DNA from: a virus
IMG/VR virus record: IMGVR_UViG_3300023112_000044
Location: 1 to 37,959 of that record
Length of the DNA stretch: 37,959 nucleotides
Reading direction: 5' to 3' (one strand)
The notes beneath the pieces are model-generated. The model saw nothing but the letters and a program-made list of their open reading frames with translations. It did not search any database and was not told where the DNA came from. The position numbers and the translations under genes are program-made. Shown here piece after piece: positions 18,740 to 28,531 of the stretch. How positions within the stretch are numbered: the stretch's first letter is position 1; each line of letters begins with the position of its first letter.

Positions 18740-19321
18740 GATTTTCTCCTCTTTTGGCGCAGCCGTGAAGACTGCATTGATTTTGATTTCTGACAGGGAT
18801 GCCGCTCCGGTGTTCTCGTCGGCTCCGAGGCTGGTGAATGTCACCTCTCGGAGAGATGCCTGGCGGAACACATGGGCTGGCCCGTGAATCTCTCGACCAT
18901 TCACCGTGGAACTTTCGCCCTCCTCCAGACGCTCGATCGACTTCGGCGGCACATATACGCTGGCCTGCCACGGAAATCCGGAAGCCATCATGCTCTGCAC
19001 TTCCATGCCATCTTTTGTGTCCAGGAATGTACCCTCGGCCACCAGGCCATCGTCCGTCACTTCAATCTTAAAGGTATGCCCCACGATCCGCTGCGGGTCG
19101 TGGTCACGCAGGGCGGGCTTGCGTTGTCTGCCGATCTTCAAGCCATCGAAATCGATGGCGAAGTTGCCCCAATGCGGATGGTTCTCAATGACATCACCCG
19201 AGTTCGCAACCATCCGAAACTGCGCTCGATCTTTCTCATCGCTGCGTAGCTCGAAGGTGGAGCGCTCTGGATCCACAATCATCAATGCTGACCTCGGCAC
19301 GGTCATCTCGTCATTCGTCAT
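18302..19321 (-). CDS. Head maturation protease with C-terminal scaffold domain
   Basis: A 339-residue prohead protease-scaffold fusion, comparable to Mu gpI or lambda C. Residues 1-185 carry the protease: PALRDHDPQRIVGHTFKIEV with the conserved His, FPWQASVYVPP with the likely nucleophile Ser region, and FRQASLREVTFTSLGAD. Residues 190-339 are acidic and helical with charged coiled-coil character, the scaffold. The ATG at 19321 overlaps the portal stop by 11 bases. A nested start inside the gene (18739) would give the scaffold alone. The protease cuts scaffold and capsid proteins before DNA packaging. Confidence 0.87.
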   Translation of the reverse strand: MTNDEMTVPRSALMIVDPERSTFELRSDEKDRAQFRMVANSGDVIENHPHWGNFAIDFDGLKIGRQRKPALRDHDPQRIVGHTFKIEVTDDGLVAEGTFLDTKDGMEVQSMMASGFPWQASVYVPPKSIERLEEGESSTVNGREIHGPAHVFRQASLREVTFTSLGADENTGAASLSEIKINAVFTAAPKEEKIMEPEKPEAPAVSDQDESATDEQFAERYDSGVEDGIRRERERVNGIIGHCLPDQLSIVTEIVEQGVTQEEGVKRLMADVKEGIEERLAHKLSSTPEPVGPLDASPSDPRSTFEADTELSAEFGTFEVWEAYTKAIENGRIVRGKAN

Positions 19322-20834
19322 CCTTACCTTTCATCTGTAGTTCTTCCATGAATGCTTGCTCCCTGGCCCGCTGCTCGAGGACTTGCTCCCAGTCTCGGCC
19401 CTGGGCGGCGGCTTCAATTGCGAGGCTCGATAATCCTGCATCAATCGCCATCGTGGCCGACTCCACTTCCTTCTTCGGATCCACCCAGCCATAGGATGGC
19501 GGAACCCAGCGGCTGCGAACAATGTGATGCTTCAGTCGCTCGAAATCCTTCACCGGGATCTCGCCACGCATCCACGCTTCCTCCACCACCATCGAATACA
19601 CTTGCGTGCATAGGTGATCAGTGATGTACCGCTGCCAGCGTGTGAACACTCGGCGGGCTTCGAGTAGTGCGGCCCTGGCGCTCGAGTAGTTTGTCTGGCT
19701 GAAGTCTTTCGCCACCAGTTCATACGGTAGGCCCATCGAAGCGCCGATAGATCTGAGGTGGCGCATTACGAATTGATCGTATCCTGTGCCATTCGCCGTG
19801 CCTGGATTCCCGAAGGTCACCTGCTCCCCCGGTGCCAGATACGAAATCATGCCTGGCTCGATTTCCTGGATGCGCTGCTGGCTGACAGTTTCATCGCTTC
19901 TGTTCACGGCTGCATTGTATGGATCGTCCCGCTGGACGAACATCGAGAAGCACGCCGATACCCGCTCCCTGACCAGTACGGCCTCAGAGAATGAACTCAG
20001 ATCCTTAAACGACTGGAGCGCAGGAGCGAGCATCGGCTCGCCTCGTGTCTGCCCTGGTCTGGTGTTGTTCATCAAGTGGATCATCTGCGGCGTGCCATCG
20101 CTGTCGAGCGCACGGATTCGCCTGTGCCTGGCATCCTTCCTGCGCTCGTAAATGCCATCGCCGGGATGCGAGACCCGCAGCCAGTAGGCCACCGGGTGTC
20201 CATACTTCCCGAGTTCGACACCGCTGCGCCGATTGAATTTCCCATTCACGCTGTCAAGATCTCCGGGCGACTCCAGCCTGTCAGGCTCGATGACTTCGAG
20301 CGCCAGATCGTAAGGCGATGACACTCGGCTGATTCTAACGGGTAGCACCAGAGCCTCGCCATTAACGATGATGCTCCGCATCACTGCGGCCTGGAGGTCG
20401 TAGAATGTCATCCCTCGGGCGATGTCTGCGTGCGGTGCCCATCGCTCCCATGCGAACTCGCACGCTTTGCGAATCTCCGCAGCATCTTGATCGGATACAC
20501 CGAGCGCAGAACCATCGATCACTGACTGCGGGCGGATCCCTGTCCCGACTACATTGTCAACCAGGCTCCCCACCACGCTCGAGGCGTGTGGATCATTCCG
20601 CATCAACTCCCTGGAGCGTTCCCGCAGGAGGCTCAGGTCTGGGAGCAGATCGGAATCCGCTGATCCGGGAGTCACCGCCCAATTGTTGCTCAGGCGAGTT
20701 TCCCGTGCGCCTCGGAATGCTTGCGAGAAATGTTCCCCGGCGGTCCTGGCGGCTTGCCGCTCCAGTGCCCGTCCAGGTGCGAACACCTCGATGGCTCGAT
20801 CGATGGCTGATGTTAGTGTTTGGCGTATGTTCAT
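19311..20834 (-). CDS. Portal protein, lambda B type
   Basis: A 507-residue portal subunit of the lambda family; twelve copies form the ring through which DNA is packaged and leaves. The N-terminal region LRERSRELMRNDPHASSVVGSLVDNVVGTGIRPQ is diagnostic, followed by FYDLQAAVMRSIIVNGEALVL, RPGQTRGEPMLAPAL and SMGLPYELVAKDFSQTNYSSARAALLEARR. Length is as expected. ATG 20834 overlaps the gpW stop as ATGA. TerL upstream is likewise of the GpA kind that works with this portal. Confidence 0.95.
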   Translation of the reverse strand: MNIRQTLTSAIDRAIEVFAPGRALERQAARTAGEHFSQAFRGARETRLSNNWAVTPGSADSDLLPDLSLLRERSRELMRNDPHASSVVGSLVDNVVGTGIRPQSVIDGSALGVSDQDAAEIRKACEFAWERWAPHADIARGMTFYDLQAAVMRSIIVNGEALVLPVRISRVSSPYDLALEVIEPDRLESPGDLDSVNGKFNRRSGVELGKYGHPVAYWLRVSHPGDGIYERRKDARHRRIRALDSDGTPQMIHLMNNTRPGQTRGEPMLAPALQSFKDLSSFSEAVLVRERVSACFSMFVQRDDPYNAAVNRSDETVSQQRIQEIEPGMISYLAPGEQVTFGNPGTANGTGYDQFVMRHLRSIGASMGLPYELVAKDFSQTNYSSARAALLEARRVFTRWQRYITDHLCTQVYSMVVEEAWMRGEIPVKDFERLKHHIVRSRWVPPSYGWVDPKKEVESATMAIDAGLSSLAIEAAAQGRDWEQVLEQRAREQAFMEELQMKGKDDE

Positions 20835-21049
20835 TTCGGTCTCACGAACCGGACATAGTTTGTAGCGTTGTCGGTCTGCTCATTGGCAAGTTGCGAAATC
20901 AATCGACGCTCGAGGTCCATCAACTGGGCCAGCGAGTAATGCGAAAGTTGCCGCCCGTTGATCTCGTAGGACTGGACAGCGCCGCCATCCATAAGGGCAT
21001 CAATTGCATCTCGAACCTTTTGTAGTCGTGTAGCCGTGGAGTTCGCCAT
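20831..21049 (-). CDS. gpW-like head-tail connector
   Basis: A 72-residue protein, the length of lambda gpW (68). It has an N-terminal helix TATRLQKVRDAIDALMDGGAVQSYEINGRQLSHYSLAQLMDLERRL, with the beta hairpin and second helix of the gpW fold. It binds beneath the portal and prepares the head for tail joining. In lambda W lies between terminase and portal, as here. ATG 21049 has only a weak ribosome site; a longer frame upstream is judged non-coding. Confidence 0.85.
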   Translation of the reverse strand: MANSTATRLQKVRDAIDALMDGGAVQSYEINGRQLSHYSLAQLMDLERRLISQLANEQTDNATNYVRFVRPK

Positions 21050-21110
21050 GCGTACAGTGTGACGATGAAGTATGGAGGCCGTCCACTGGCTCGCTATTCC
21101 AGGATGAAGA

Positions 21111-21872
21111 TCACGACAGCAGCCGGAAGGCCAGCCTGGCCTGTGCTGGAACCTGACCATTGCCGATAGCCATTAATCTCGCTCGGCGATGTTCATTCTT
21201 CTCGGTCAGCCTGGGCACTTCGCCCGTATCGGCTGGATCGACATCCCAGTAGGTTCCGGCGTTGACCATCTCCAGCCACGAGTCCAGAACATCGACAGGT
21301 AGCGGATCCAGCGAGGACCAGCCACACGGCCATCCCATCAGCCATTCGCACCATGCGGGATTGAGTTTTCCCGTGTCTTTTCTGATCGCCCCTTTTCCAC
21401 CACCGTGGCGGTCGCTCGCTGTTGGTGTCGGCCACTCGTGATCTCGTTTGACTGTTGGCCCGAATCCCCGTTCTGTGGCATCACAGAGGGTCTTTCCGGG
21501 CGAATGCGTTGACGTCTTTTCGTAACCAATCGAGCCTGATGACTTGCTATCCCCGCAGGTCGGCGTGGGCCACCGAACCGCAATGCCCAGCGACTTCCCC
21601 GGCTTCCCCTTCGCCCTCCCAGCATTGTAATCCTCGACCCTGGCGAGGTAGTCCTCGATCGGTTCATCATGATTGCCCCTCGTCACATGGGATACGGTAG
21701 GGGTAGGCCAGGCACCACCAGCGGCGGCGGAGATGTCTGGCTCCAGCGTCTCGAGCGGATACAACACGCCACCGAGCATCATACCCGATAGACCATAGAT
21801 CTCGGGCGATCGTGCTGATGTAGGGTCGGATGCCTGGGACATTTTCGAGGTGTACCTCGGCTGGTCGAACAT
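21111..21872 (-). CDS. Cytosine-C5 methyltransferase, target-recognition and motif X part
   Basis: About 253 residues from ATG 21872 (ATGs at 21842, 21782 and 22181 are alternatives; the last overlaps the zinc-ribbon stop as ATGA). It shows SGMMLGGVLYPLETLEP, then three WPTPT motifs, the segment LNPAWCEWLMGWPCGW, and RLMAIGNGQVPAQARLAF, which is motif X. These belong to the C-terminal half of phage C5 methyltransferases; the catalytic motifs lie in the overlapping upstream gene in another frame. The two polypeptides may assemble like the alpha and beta chains of M.AquI. A damaged single gene is the alternative. Confidence 0.7.
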   Translation of the reverse strand: MFDQPRYTSKMSQASDPTSARSPEIYGLSGMMLGGVLYPLETLEPDISAAAGGAWPTPTVSHVTRGNHDEPIEDYLARVEDYNAGRAKGKPGKSLGIAVRWPTPTCGDSKSSGSIGYEKTSTHSPGKTLCDATERGFGPTVKRDHEWPTPTASDRHGGGKGAIRKDTGKLNPAWCEWLMGWPCGWSSLDPLPVDVLDSWLEMVNAGTYWDVDPADTGEVPRLTEKNEHRRARLMAIGNGQVPAQARLAFRLLS

Positions 21873-22209
21873 CTCCAATTGCTCGAATAGTGGCGGGCCA
21901 CTTGTTTCTCGGATCGACGGCTCCCAGTCGCTTCCCGGCGTTACTCCATCCCTGACAGGGAAATCCCGCTGTAAGTAGATCCACACGGCCTCGGAAGAAT
22001 CGGAAATCGACCTGCTCGACATCATGGAAGACTGGGAAGGGATCCGGGAGCGTCCCGTCTTCCTGTCTCGCCATGATCTGCTGCTGGCAGTACGGCTCGA
22101 ATTCAACTGCTGCAACGATTCGCCGTCCCGCAGCAATGGATCCAAGACAACCGCCAACGCCAGCGAACAGGACCAATTCATTCTGCTGCACTCTTCGCCC
22201 TTGAGTCAT
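21667..22209 (-). CDS. Cytosine-C5 methyltransferase, catalytic part
   Basis: 180 residues holding the catalytic motifs of a DNA cytosine-C5 methyltransferase in order: motif I (LFAGVGGCLGS, AdoMet binding), motif IV with the nucleophile Cys (GFPCQGWS), motif VI (ENVPG) and motif VIII (RWRVVSARDAGARHLRRRWW). It then stops at 21667 without a target-recognition domain or motif X, both of which are found in the +1 frame at 21111-21872. Start could be ATG 22209 or GTG 22194. It probably protects phage DNA from restriction. The overlap with the second part is about 200 bases, so it is either a two-chain enzyme or a frameshifted gene. Confidence 0.8.
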   Translation of the reverse strand: MTQGRRVQQNELVLFAGVGGCLGSIAAGRRIVAAVEFEPYCQQQIMARQEDGTLPDPFPVFHDVEQVDFRFFRGRVDLLTAGFPCQGWSNAGKRLGAVDPRNKWPATIRAIGDVRPAEVHLENVPGIRPYISTIARDLWSIGYDARWRVVSARDAGARHLRRRWWCLAYPYRIPCDEGQS

Positions 22210-22363
22210 CTTCCCATGATCGGTAGCGCAGGGCGCATTGCTTGCACTTGTGATATCGCAGCCGCCCCTCTTTCCCGTACTGGCGATGGCTGCGGCTGCC
22301 GCAGTCCGGGCACCGGATCGGCGTGTACTCCACGACCTTCCATCGCTTCTCCTTGTCAGCCAT
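22178..22363 (-). CDS. Small zinc-ribbon protein
   Basis: A 61-residue protein between TerL and the methyltransferase. It has RCPDCGSR...YHKCKQCALRYR, two CxxC pairs 20 or so residues apart, a classical zinc ribbon, with a basic N terminus. Its start overlaps the TerL stop region by eight bases. Such proteins may bind DNA or RNA; no specific function is known here. Confidence 0.72.
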   Translation of the reverse strand: MADKEKRWKVVEYTPIRCPDCGSRSHRQYGKEGRLRYHKCKQCALRYRSWEDDSRAKSAAE

Positions 22364-24110
22364 TGATCCAGCCCTTCCCAGGTTTCACCCATTGCGACTG
22401 CTGCGATGGCTGCGGTGGTGGCTCTGGCGGCTGGTGGGCTTCCTCGGTGAGTGCGAACACCGCAACCATGTCGGCTGACGCTGCGGCGTAGACCTCGCAA
22501 TCCCAGTAGTGATTGTCGGACCCGCCCGGCTTCGTTGTCCACACGCTGGCGGTGGCTCCGGTTCTTCTGTTCCTGGTCAGCACCTTATGCTCGCTTGTAA
22601 CCTGCTTCAGGTACTCGGCTGGAACATCCTGATGGAGGTGCCAAGCGCCAGGCTCGCCATCCTGGGCGGTCATGAATCTCGTCAACTTGTCCTTGAAGTG
22701 CGTGGTGTCGAGATGGAACAGCCGCACGGATCCCTTCAGCGGATCACCTGCGATGTTCCTGTCGATCTTCGATGTGCGAATCGGTACACCGTTCAGCGAT
22801 TTTTGTCCCTTGATCGGGCGGCAGATCTCCGGCCACGATCGGCAAAACCGATACACCTCATCGGTGCGATACCCGGAATCGATGCAAGCCAACCGGAGCC
22901 GATGCGGTCCCTGCTCGCCCGGCCAGGTGCGCCGCAATAGAACATCGACAAGTTGCTCGAGGCCAGCATTCAATCGCCCGCACTCGATCAGCCACGACTC
23001 CTCACGATATCCGAACGCCCTGACGATGTAGTACAGATGGTCCTGCTGGACATCGACACCTGCGACAAGGACACGGGCACCCGCTGGAACCGTGGACCGC
23101 TCGTACTCCTTCGCTCGCTGGCTCAGGTCTTCCACTTCCACCTTGTGGCTTTCTTCCTCGAAGATCCAACCGAGCCAGGAGTTTACGAAATTCATCAGGC
23201 TCGCTGGATTGCTCTTCGACTCGAGGAACTTAGCGGCCACCTCGCTCCATGTGAGCCACGGACTGAGGAGGGCATTGATGCGATATCCTCGATGGGATCC
23301 AGGCGTTCCAGTCACTGACCACGAGCCTCGCATCAGCATCTCGGGCTTGTCTCGGTCCTTGATCACGCCGCTGCACTTGGAGCATTCATACCAGGCCAGG
23401 CGTTCCTGGCGGATCTTCACCGGGTCACGCTCGTCGTCGGGCCACTTCACCTGCGAGAATTCCAAGGTCTGCGAATGCTCGCAATGCGGACACGGTACAG
23501 AATACACCCGCTGATCGCTGCGCTCGTACTGCTGGAAAATGTAGCCGTTCCTCGTGGTGGGTGTGGAGGCCAGGACGATCTTCCGATTCCAGAATGTTCG
23601 TGTGCGCTCCACCATTAGATCGACGGGTGACGATTCCCTGCCACTGAATGCGGGCCACTTATCCACCTCGTCGCCGAGGACATACCGAACCGGGCGGCTC
23701 GCCAGGTCAGCCGGAGAGTTCGAGCCAGCCAGGTACAGCATCGAGCGAGTGAATCGGATCTCCTTCAGTTTGTTATCAGATTTGGATTCGCTCAGATGTT
23801 TTGATAGCTCCGGCGAAGACTCGACCATCGGGCGAATGCGGCGCATCCCCATTTGCACTGCGTCCTCTTCCCGTGGCATGACCAGCAAGGTCGCACCTGG
23901 ATCCTCTGCGATGGTGTAGGCGATCATGTTCATGATGGCCTCAGTCTTCCCGACCTGAGTGGAGGCCATGATCGTCAACTGTTCGACGGTAGGGTCGCTG
24001 AATGCATCGAGTACATCCCGGAGGTACGGCGTGCGATTTGTGTTCCACGGGCCTGGCTCGGCTGATGTGAGTGGGTGGAGGATTCTGTGGCGATCCGACC
24101 AGGCGGACAC
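22356..24110 (-). CDS. Terminase large subunit, GpA family
   Basis: The packaging motor ATPase and nuclease, 584 residues from GTG 24110. Walker A is ASTQVGKTE (49-57), Walker B VLGDEVD (144-150). A CPHC...CSKC zinc pair lies near 210-255, and the nuclease begins VAGVDVQQDHLYY near 350, all as in lambda GpA. The family usually begins some 25-30 residues earlier with ...PPDDLTVSEWA; here the same frame is open to 24200 and reads VEWTARERLAWHPPDDLT, but offers no ATG, GTG or TTG. The true start may be a rare codon (CTG 24185 or ATC 24191). Confidence 0.95.
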   Translation of the reverse strand: MSAWSDRHRILHPLTSAEPGPWNTNRTPYLRDVLDAFSDPTVEQLTIMASTQVGKTEAIMNMIAYTIAEDPGATLLVMPREEDAVQMGMRRIRPMVESSPELSKHLSESKSDNKLKEIRFTRSMLYLAGSNSPADLASRPVRYVLGDEVDKWPAFSGRESSPVDLMVERTRTFWNRKIVLASTPTTRNGYIFQQYERSDQRVYSVPCPHCEHSQTLEFSQVKWPDDERDPVKIRQERLAWYECSKCSGVIKDRDKPEMLMRGSWSVTGTPGSHRGYRINALLSPWLTWSEVAAKFLESKSNPASLMNFVNSWLGWIFEEESHKVEVEDLSQRAKEYERSTVPAGARVLVAGVDVQQDHLYYIVRAFGYREESWLIECGRLNAGLEQLVDVLLRRTWPGEQGPHRLRLACIDSGYRTDEVYRFCRSWPEICRPIKGQKSLNGVPIRTSKIDRNIAGDPLKGSVRLFHLDTTHFKDKLTRFMTAQDGEPGAWHLHQDVPAEYLKQVTSEHKVLTRNRRTGATASVWTTKPGGSDNHYWDCEVYAAASADMVAVFALTEEAHQPPEPPPQPSQQSQWVKPGKGWING

Positions 24111-25898: not shown

Positions 25899-26239
25899 CC
25901 GATGGCCTTTTGGTATAAATGATCGTGTAGGTATCTGCGAATCCCCACAGTGTCTGGCCCTTCTCGGTAATAGATGTCGCCGATCCATCTGCCGTACTTT
26001 CCCGACTTCTTCGTGGTAATGAACATGTCCTCCCGGATGTGATTCTCGAACCACCACGCCGCCCACTTGCAATACTTCAGCCCCTCTTCCCTGGTATCGC
26101 CTCGAGGCTCCGGAGCGTTGAAGTGGGCCAGCCGCACTCGGATCTTATGCGAGATGTTAAATCCTAGATCGACCACGACATCCATCGTGTCGCCGTCTAT
26201 TACTCGATCGAGTATGCATGGGTAGGTGTAGTCGGTCAT
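25895..26239 (-). CDS. Staphylococcal nuclease-like protein
   Basis: A 114-residue SNase/thermonuclease homologue. The motifs are VIDGDTMDVVVDLG (residues 13-26), IRVRLAHFNAPE with Arg 36 and Glu 44 matching catalytic R35 and E43 of the Staphylococcus enzyme, and KYGRWIGDI with Arg 84 matching R87. The calcium ligand D40 of the model enzyme appears as Asn 41, and T41 as Ala, so metal use may differ. No signal peptide, so it acts inside the cell or virion. The ATG overlaps the methyltransferase stop (ATGA). It might degrade host DNA or process phage DNA. Confidence 0.85.
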   Translation of the reverse strand: MTDYTYPCILDRVIDGDTMDVVVDLGFNISHKIRVRLAHFNAPEPRGDTREEGLKYCKWAAWWFENHIREDMFITTKKSGKYGRWIGDIYYREGPDTVGIRRYLHDHLYQKAIG

Positions 26240-26955
26240 CGTATCGCCTCTTCTCCGGTCAGGGTCTTCCATCGCTCGACGATCACATCGCAGTAGCCGG
26301 GGTCGATCTCCAGGCCATAGCACTTGCGGCCGAGATTCTCGGCGGCGACGATCGTGGTGCCACTGCCGAGGAAGGGGTCGTAGACCAGATGCGAGCGATC
26401 CGTGATAATGCGGAGGAGATCATGCCAGAGCCTGAGCGGCTTCTGGGTCGGATGGGATGTGCGCTCGTGTCCTGCTGACCGTGGATAGCGGAACACATTC
26501 GATGTCGCCCCGCCGCCGTTCCAGCATCTGACCTTGCCATCTTTCACTCTTCCGAACACGCCGACCTCGACGCAGGAGCAGAAATTCGGGCGAGGACTTG
26601 GGGCGATTGGTTTCTCCCAGTACACGCATTGGAGCGGGCGGATGTTCGCTGCTTCGTAACGCCGCCACAAGGTTGTCATCTCGCTTTGGTCGTAGAATGA
26701 AATGAACGCCGCACCGGGAATGGCATGGGCAACAGCAACCCGAATCCAGCCCTGCGGTGTCTCCTTGTCCCATTCGATGTTGAATGAATCGCCTTCGCTT
26801 GAATGCTGGAATTTGGATTCCGATGCCGTGCCATACGGCGGATCCGTCAGGCAAGCATCGACCAGTTCCCCACCCATCAACCGCTCGACATCCTCCGCCT
26901 TCGTGGAGTCGCCGCAGAGTAGGCGATGGCGAGACCTGACCTGGAGGCTACCCAT
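26236..26955 (-). CDS. DPPY-type DNA methyltransferase (N6-adenine or N4-cytosine), copy 1
   Basis: 239 residues. Motif IV TDPPYG is near the N terminus (D38) and motif I DPFLGSGTTIVAAENLGRKCYGLEID near the C terminus (193 onward), so this is the beta-class order. The central part (residues 50-180) contains the target-recognition region. It is a tandem paralogue of the next upstream gene: the first 45 and last 55 residues are nearly the same in both, the middles differ. It follows directly in an operon with a ParB-like gene. DPPY is compatible with adenine-N6 or cytosine-N4 methylation. Confidence 0.9.
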   Translation of the reverse strand: MGSLQVRSRHRLLCGDSTKAEDVERLMGGELVDACLTDPPYGTASESKFQHSSEGDSFNIEWDKETPQGWIRVAVAHAIPGAAFISFYDQSEMTTLWRRYEAANIRPLQCVYWEKPIAPSPRPNFCSCVEVGVFGRVKDGKVRCWNGGGATSNVFRYPRSAGHERTSHPTQKPLRLWHDLLRIITDRSHLVYDPFLGSGTTIVAAENLGRKCYGLEIDPGYCDVIVERWKTLTGEEAIR

Positions 26956-27628
26956 GCCGCACCGTGGTAATCCCTCCGGTCAGGGTCTCCCATCGCTCAA
27001 TGATCACATCGCAGTAGCCGGGATCGATTTCCATGCCGTAGCATTTGCGGCCCAGGTTGTCGGCTGCGATCAGCGTTGTGCCGCTGCCGAGGAAGGGATC
27101 GAGGATGACCTCGCCATCAAGTGATACCCGTTTCATCAACCAACTCCAAAACCCAATAGGCTTCGCACATGGATGGTCGTCACTCGATGCTCTTTCGGTG
27201 TGTACTATTGCGTCTGGATGACTCCCCATGCCGTTCGCAAGTTTTGGATCTTTCCCGTAACACATGATGGGTTGCCAACAGATAAACCCCCAAGGGCCTC
27301 GGCCCGTCCCTGCGGGAACAAACCATGCCATCGTCCATGTTGGTGTGGGGTATCTGTGTTGGTTCATGTTTCCTGGCGTGATGACAACTCTATGCACATT
27401 ACCAATGCACCGTTCGACCACTGATGCGATGATTGCATCCAGGTTTTCCACTGTGTCATCGTAACTGTTGTAGTTGTTCTTATCTGATTTTGTACCTGCG
27501 ACCCCGTATGGTGGATCAGTGACAACAGCATCCGCCACCTCCCCACCCATCAACCGCTCGACATCCTCCTCCTTCGTGGAGTCGCCGCAGAGTAAGCGAT
27601 GGATGGATTTCACCTGGAGGCTACCCAT
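26948..27628 (-). CDS. DPPY-type DNA methyltransferase, copy 2
   Basis: 226 residues, starting MGSLQVKSIHRLLCGDST. Motif IV TDPPYG (D38) and motif I DPFLGSGTTLIAADNLGRKCYGMEID match copy 1 almost residue for residue, but the region between is unrelated in length and sequence (for example NNYNSYDDTVENLDAI, and PTWTMAWFVPAGTGRGPWGF). The two thus probably methylate different sites. ATG 27628 overlaps the end of the ParB-like gene by eight bases; in many phages ParB and methyltransferase halves are one chain with a GDxxxLGxHRLLCGDST junction, which is split here. Confidence 0.9.
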   Translation of the reverse strand: MGSLQVKSIHRLLCGDSTKEEDVERLMGGEVADAVVTDPPYGVAGTKSDKNNYNSYDDTVENLDAIIASVVERCIGNVHRVVITPGNMNQHRYPTPTWTMAWFVPAGTGRGPWGFICWQPIMCYGKDPKLANGMGSHPDAIVHTERASSDDHPCAKPIGFWSWLMKRVSLDGEVILDPFLGSGTTLIAADNLGRKCYGMEIDPGYCDVIIERWETLTGGITTVRHG

Positions 27629-28208
27629 CGCAGCACTGCTCGCCGACTCTGGCGGGGTCGTAATCCTGCCGCTTGCCACACGCATCGCACTCGAGGTAGG
27701 CGCCGAAGAGAATCAGATCGCCAGGCTTCGTAATCGGCTCCACTGGCGGCTCGGGGATGGGCGCTTCCTCCTGTTCATTCTCGCCTGGCAATTCCAGGTC
27801 GAGCAGTTCGCCGAGTTCTTCATCGCTCCAGCCGAGGGAGTCGAGATCGATGTCTTCATCCTTCAGGGAAGACAGCACGCCAGCGAGGCCAGCCATGTCG
27901 AACTCGGATAGGTCCGCCGTCCTGTTGTCGGTGATGGCGTACAACTTCGCCGTGGTGTCATCATCCGAATCTGCCGACACCACTGCGATGTGCGACCAGC
28001 CGAGATTGATGGCGGCCACGAGCCTGGCGTTCCCGGCGATGACGATTCCATTGCGGGCCACGATCGGCGTGCGCTGACCGAACCGCTCGAGGGAGTTCTG
28101 CACGGAGGAGATGCTCCGCTTGTCATGCTTTCGCAGGTTGTCCGGGTCTTCGGTGATCGAGCCGATGGGGACGGCCAGCCCTCGCAACTCCTCGGCGATG
28201 TAATCCAT
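27621..28208 (-). CDS. ParB-like nuclease-domain protein with zinc-binding tail
   Basis: 195 residues from ATG 28208, the third of three consecutive ATG codons and the one six bases from GAGG. Residues 10-110 are a ParB/Srx fold: LRKHDKRSISSVQNSLERFGQRTPIVARNGIVIAGNARLVAAINLGW. An acidic stretch and a Pro/Glu linker follow, then LECDACGKRQ...GEQCCDG, a CxxC...CC putative zinc site. ParB-like domains are often fused to phage DPPY methyltransferases and are thought to guide or regulate them; here two methyltransferases follow directly, suggesting one functional unit. Confidence 0.82.
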   Translation of the reverse strand: MDYIAEELRGLAVPIGSITEDPDNLRKHDKRSISSVQNSLERFGQRTPIVARNGIVIAGNARLVAAINLGWSHIAVVSADSDDDTTAKLYAITDNRTADLSEFDMAGLAGVLSSLKDEDIDLDSLGWSDEELGELLDLELPGENEQEEAPIPEPPVEPITKPGDLILFGAYLECDACGKRQDYDPARVGEQCCDG

Positions 28209-28531
28209 CATCATCCTCATTTCATTTTGACAGTTTGCAGTCTGCCCCTCAGGCTGCAACATTCGGTTCTATGCTAGGCATAGAGCCTCCCGAGGTAGGA
28301 ACCACATCGATGGTTTGGATGGACTGGCGGCGCTCTGGTCGTCCTTGTCGCAGCCTACAAACGGAAGATGGAATATATTTATCGACCGAAAGCCGAGAAC
28401 CGAGATGTAGACACCCACAGGAGGTACCTTAGAAGGGTGGCCGCAGAGAGCCACACAGGGCTGCTGTACGGGCCTGACTCGGAACACTCAGGCGGCGGCG
28501 GAGGCTGTCAGCGGGTCACACAGGCGGCCAT
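28209..28531. other. 323-bp region without a convincing gene
   Basis: A space between the 38-residue acidic protein and the ParB-like gene. It contains two adjacent stem-loops (28235-28259 and 28265-28287), a third weaker one (28472-28493, arms GCCTGA/TCAGGC), and an AT-rich patch (GGAATATATTTATCG, about 28372-28386) that could include a -10 element. A 72-codon minus-strand frame is present but lacks a ribosome site and looks like chance. It probably holds control elements for the methyltransferase block. Confidence 0.5.
28235..28287 (+). promoter_or_regulatory. Two adjacent stem-loops
   Basis: First stem 28235-28244 with 28250-28259 (10 bp, 5-base loop); second stem 28265-28274 with 28278-28287 (10 bp, 3-base loop). 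Each has a single T-G pair that is a wobble in plus-strand RNA and an A-C mismatch in minus-strand RNA. They lie 27-79 bases upstream of the ParB-like start. Double-stranded operators or a small plus-strand RNA are both possible. Confidence 0.5.

Follow-up and report, generated by a model that had tools for sequence, protein, structure and literature searches.

Two reading frames of a predicted cytosine-C5 methyltransferase

The locus described here lies on the minus strand of a virus record of 37,959 bases (the whole of it hereafter called the window), and comprises two overlapping open reading frames, alpha and beta, which carry the motifs of a DNA cytosine-C5 methyltransferase (Table 1). 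The adjoining genes, among which a cognate endonuclease was sought, encode the large terminase subunit, a zinc-ribbon-like protein, a head-tail adaptor and a portal protein. Elsewhere in the window, two neighbouring ORFs for N6/N4 DNA methylases (26236-26955 and 26948-27685, minus strand), whose matches to the PF01555 profile fall mainly in its C-terminal part, stand beside a ParB-like ORF (27621-28262, minus strand) that matches the DNA methyltransferase profile phrog_498; these three ORFs possibly form a split or multi-gene second methyltransferase.

Table 1. Positions of the alpha and beta frames, their candidate start signals and the neighbouring genes.
Feature	Position	Strand	Remarks
Alpha ORF	21667-22209	-	180 aa from ATG 22209, 174 aa if started at GTG 22191; no motif X
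Beta ORF	21111-22181	-	356 aa, +1 frame; extension read over alpha, target-recognition region, motif IX-like segment, motif X
Dual-coding region	21667-22181	-	515 bp; no stop in the +1 frame
Alternative alpha start, GTG	22189-22191	-	upstream GGG-containing Shine-Dalgarno-like stretch, kept in L003 and L004; found by inspection
A-ATGA	22178-22182	-	beta ATG (22181-22179) overlaps the TGA (22180-22178) of the 61-aa ORF
Zinc-ribbon-like ORF	22178-22363	-	61 aa, upstream ORF; zinc-ribbon matches weak, under the Pfam cut-offs
Terminase large subunit	22356-24110		PF05876/PF20454; one side of the pair
Head-tail adaptor	20831-21160		other side of the pair
Portal	19311-20834		same side as head-tail adaptor

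The alpha product presents LFAGVGG (motif I), GFPCQ (IV), ENVPG (VI) and RRRWW...LAY (VIII) in the order of the Pfam family DNA_methylase (PF00145; I, IV with PCQ, VI with ENV, VIII), and its stop codon (21669-21667) follows motif VIII, in agreement with the original prediction, which had placed these four motifs in a single frame stopping at 21667. It matches positions 6-161 of the 324 in the PF00145 profile (E 1.2e-26), and a fold search with its AlphaFold model retrieved M.HaeIII (3ubt, E 1.5e-9) as well as M.HhaI. The catalytic PCQ and EN are invariant among the relatives.

The other elements of the PF00145 family, namely the target-recognition region (TRD) and motifs IX and X, were recognised by motif in beta, which carries SGMMLGGVLYPL, three WPTPT units in the target-recognition region, LNPAWCEWLMGWPCGW (named motif IX-like from its position and likeness) and AIGNGQVP (motif X). 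The TRD segment, the WPTPT motifs and motif X do lie in the +1 frame, as had been proposed, and this frame ends at 21111. The claim that SGMMLGGVLYPL precedes motif VIII also stands, its coding stretch being at about 21785-21750 and that of the RRRWW of alpha at about 21730-21715. Two single-chain PHROG profiles agree with this division: on phrog_116, alpha covers positions 213-371 and beta relatives 409-493, and on phrog_363 the corresponding ranges are 55-217 and 244-314. Since the beta relatives map C-terminal to alpha, alpha followed by beta corresponds to the normal order of the enzyme.

A search with the window beta gave a match to PHROG_1008, 'DNA methyltransferase' (E 1.5e-29), which begins only at residue 55, and no match to any curated Pfam or NCBIfam model. 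PHROG_1008, the profile as which alone the beta family is known, was matched by all 59 beta proteins scanned. The structure model of beta is of low confidence (pLDDT 54), residues 21-130 scoring about 40 and being mostly unstructured, and a PDB fold search with it returned no match; a disordered N-terminal model would be expected for an overprinted segment, yet proves nothing. In two related contigs (L003:4001-4888 and L004:4001-4888), beta lacks about 180 bp with two of the three WPTPT units and both frames are still open, so the target-recognition region seems to be modular. An unusual element, NHDEPIEDYL, is common to the window beta and to that of a relative with a short overlap (L008:3935-4768), which suggests a common target or target module.

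Selection on both frames of the overlap

A dual-coding region of roughly 200 bases had been predicted, which proved too small: starting at ATG 22181, beta shares 515 bp with alpha and has no stop within them. The arrangement also turns out to be widespread. In synonymous-codon shuffles of the window alpha, the +1 frame stays open by chance in 1.4% of cases (p 0.014), and the comparative evidence for a real beta frame is far stronger. Contig L002 is identical to the window, L003 and L004 share 95% alpha identity with it, and all three keep both frames. Between the window and L003, which is close to L004 so that the two are not independent tests, substitutions in the overlap number 8/0/4 at alpha codon positions 1/2/3, against 8/1/45 in the terminase gene and 8/3/50 in the portal gene (Fisher p 6e-4). 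Position 1 of alpha is the wobble position of beta, and both frames are therefore under selection.

These data bear on the reading of the locus as a pseudogene, or as a sequencing or assembly indel in a single-chain methyltransferase. At first sight the presence of two frames does resemble a frameshift, but L002-L004, isolate phages and RefSeq genomes share the structure, the substitution pattern is of the dual-frame type, and each frame makes sense over one and the same stretch of DNA, which leaves this reading with a negligible probability. The broken gene or assembly error is refuted by the relatives with the same two frames, and the preference for a two-chain enzyme expressed in the original prediction is supported.

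Among 287 related loci analysed, which include isolate phages and RefSeq prophages, beta lies at +1 relative to alpha without exception. In a set of 80 relatives retrieved with alpha as the only query, all 76 testable cases have an open beta frame, and the asparagine of the NELxLF motif, which precedes the glutamate at motif I, is encoded by AAT in 75 of 75 (one further locus has CAT), the codon that creates the ATG of beta; the other asparagine codons of the same genes number 174 AAC to 81 AAT. Over six sequences with less than 72% identity, no +1 stop was observed against 22 expected from synonymous-codon shuffling, and conservation of the beta frame exceeded the shuffles with z 16, compared with z 5 for the +2 frame. 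In 50 close pairs, a set restricted to loci with an open beta frame, by which almost no locus of the NELxLF type is excluded, alpha-silent changes that would create a beta stop numbered 3 where 24 were expected (in the +2 control, 35 where 30 were expected), and the effect of alpha-silent changes on beta was less severe than expected (z 4.3; 0.3 in the control). Single-chain C5 methyltransferases, taken as control, have +1 stops at the shuffled expectation. A shadow effect, by which the N-terminus of beta would be similar merely through conservation of alpha, was rejected family-wide by the synonymous-codon shuffles and the +2-frame control.

The constraint on beta is nevertheless partial. Family-wide, substitutions in the overlap fall mostly at the third position of alpha (575/227/1312 at positions 1/2/3), and the N-terminal part of beta is accordingly under weak constraint only. 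For the window, the resemblance of the beta frame to its relatives exceeds that of shuffles at codons 1-40 (z 4.4; +2 control 0.8) and 121-160 (z 3.9), with little signal above control at codons 41-120 in the middle of the overlap. Moreover, in a number of relatives (L007-L021, L036, L040, L046 and L047, the last from mycobacteriophage Vagabond) the beta ORF starts well inside alpha, which means that not every beta has this N-terminal part. Beta might be started from an internal methionine (at about 21869, 21842 or 21782) as one of two chains, the upstream frame being open as a by-product and the true dual coding spanning some 120-200 bp, in line with the original prediction. The short-beta relatives, the PHROG_1008 match beginning at residue 55, the N-terminal part modelled without structure and the strongest window signal at codons 121-160 speak for such a start, but the window group and 75 of 75 unbiased relatives share the conserved AATGAR start context, the +1 frame is open across the whole of alpha, and codons 1-40 carry the signal given above, so we regard an internal start as rather unlikely compared with initiation at ATG 22181.

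Start signals and distribution of the arrangement

An octamer, NTGAATGA, combines a start codon of alpha (ATG, GTG or TTG), a TGA and the ATG of beta in 163 of 194 distinct relatives, and in most of them an ORF of at least 40 codons ends at the TGA just before or overlapping the beta ATG; this upstream ORF is annotated in ABMM1, S9-5 and BUCT711. The AATGAR context around the beta start is conserved in the family. From the sequence, GTG 22191 may be the start of alpha, and the 61-aa ORF is a possible translational-coupling partner of beta.

Separate initiation can be weighed against a single gene in which programmed +1 frameshifting near the end of alpha would yield an alpha-beta fusion. Such a product would have a complete motif order after motif VIII. 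It would however require a +1 shift, the -1 shift being the common kind; beta has its own conserved start; and since the alpha of most relatives carries motif X beyond the overlap, a fusion would lose that motif. We consider frameshifting highly improbable. A programmed -1 frameshift was rejected as leading in the wrong direction, beta lying at +1.

Among viral contigs, alignment queries retrieved at least 550 relatives with beta and at least 597 with alpha, and GTDB genomes yielded at least 412; a single beta sequence as query had found none in the genome contigs. The same arrangement is present in isolate phages of Acinetobacter (ABMM1), Klebsiella (BUCT711), Pseudomonas (phPA-G and PS-1), Salmonella (S9-5), Vibrio (1.236 and 1.291) and Microcystis (Mel-JY01), and the Pseudomonas prophages L134-L179 carry relatives. 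Frame relation, start codon and openness of beta are conserved across relatives; hundreds of related phages and prophages have the two-frame arrangement, and in most of them beta is left unannotated. In the RefSeq-type records checked, of E. coli chromosomes and of Leptospira plasmids (the plasmid gene table being incomplete), alpha alone is annotated, as 'DNA cytosine methyltransferase'; both genes are annotated in Vagabond (genes 6/5) and in Paenibacillus phage Bloom (genes 56/57). Betas of other sequence types are nested in the long alphas of Microbacterium phage R1 (L046), Bloom (L048) and Phage C72C1 (L049), which suggests that the arrangement reaches beyond the NELxLF family. A tree of alpha places the window group on a long branch, nearest to L202. 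This nearest relative outside the group comes from a contig that was binned with a Guaymas MAG of Euryarchaeota, and may represent either an archaeal virus or mis-binning.

A probable two-chain enzyme and its known counterparts

Two-chain C5 methyltransferases are already known, and the present locus would be one in which the gene of one subunit overlaps the other almost fully. M.AquI (CYCGRG) and M.EcoHK31I (YGGCCR) are working alpha/beta enzymes; in M.AquI, alpha holds motifs I-VIII and beta the rest of the variable region with motifs IX-X, and in M.EcoHK31I motif X is in alpha and motif IX in beta (PMC3404938). The partition of the window, with motifs I-VIII in alpha, and the remaining variable region, IX and X in beta as separate ORFs, is that of M.AquI, and the same holds for L003-L006 and L202. 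It differs in that the alpha of M.AquI contains part of the variable region, whereas the TRD of the window is essentially all in beta; the position between phage terminase and head-tail genes also sets the locus apart, as may the extension of the beta frame over nearly all of alpha. M.EcoHK31I, judged by its description, shares the two chains but has motif X and the predicted TRD in alpha; in the window, alpha ends after motif VIII, and motif X and the TRD are in beta. Most relatives found resemble M.EcoHK31I in keeping motif X in alpha and an IX-like motif in beta: a motif search over the 287 loci placed motif X in alpha in 236, whereas 27, among which are the window, L003-L006 and L202, have it in beta and 24 were undecided. 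The genes of M.EcoHK31I also overlap in different frames. In the annotated pairs of Vagabond and Bloom, two methyltransferase genes likewise overlap or are nested in different frames, but the overlap of Vagabond is of 77 bp and the beta of Bloom is of another sequence type. A search of an open library of papers returned none on the present alpha/beta overlap.

The M.AquI-like two-chain enzyme of the original prediction fits the division into alpha (I-VIII) and beta (TRD, IX, X), with both frames also in L002, L003/L004 and hundreds of loci. We conclude that the locus very probably encodes a phage DNA cytosine-C5 methyltransferase made of two polypeptides from overlapping frames, separately initiated on one mRNA. 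As predicted from motifs and start contexts, alpha, initiated at ATG 22209 or GTG 22191, would bind AdoMet and hold the catalytic cysteine; beta, initiated at ATG 22181 in the +1 frame of the same mRNA, probably by coupling to termination of the upstream 61-aa ORF at the ATGA, would provide the target-recognition region and motifs IX and X. The two chains would come together as a single active enzyme with a specific methylation site, whose role would most likely be to shield the phage DNA against host restriction.

A broader reading can be proposed tentatively, as possible but falling somewhat short of probable: that beta arose by overprinting the catalytic-subunit gene across tailed phages and prophages, that the NTGAATGA octamer packs together the alpha start, the upstream stop and the beta start, and that the N-terminus of beta, overprinted and largely without structure, has a role in assembly or in chain balance. 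If so, few same-strand overlapping gene pairs in double-stranded DNA phages would be as long and as widespread, and this one would be largely unannotated. The family would in any case offer a rare abundant case for the study of such long overlaps. If the two-chain reading holds, catalogued phage and prophage 'DNA cytosine methyltransferases' of this type would be half-enzymes whose target-setting partner lies in an unannotated overlapping frame, which would account for failed or misassigned activities when alpha is cloned alone, and the many naturally split methyltransferases of the family could be drawn upon for engineering.
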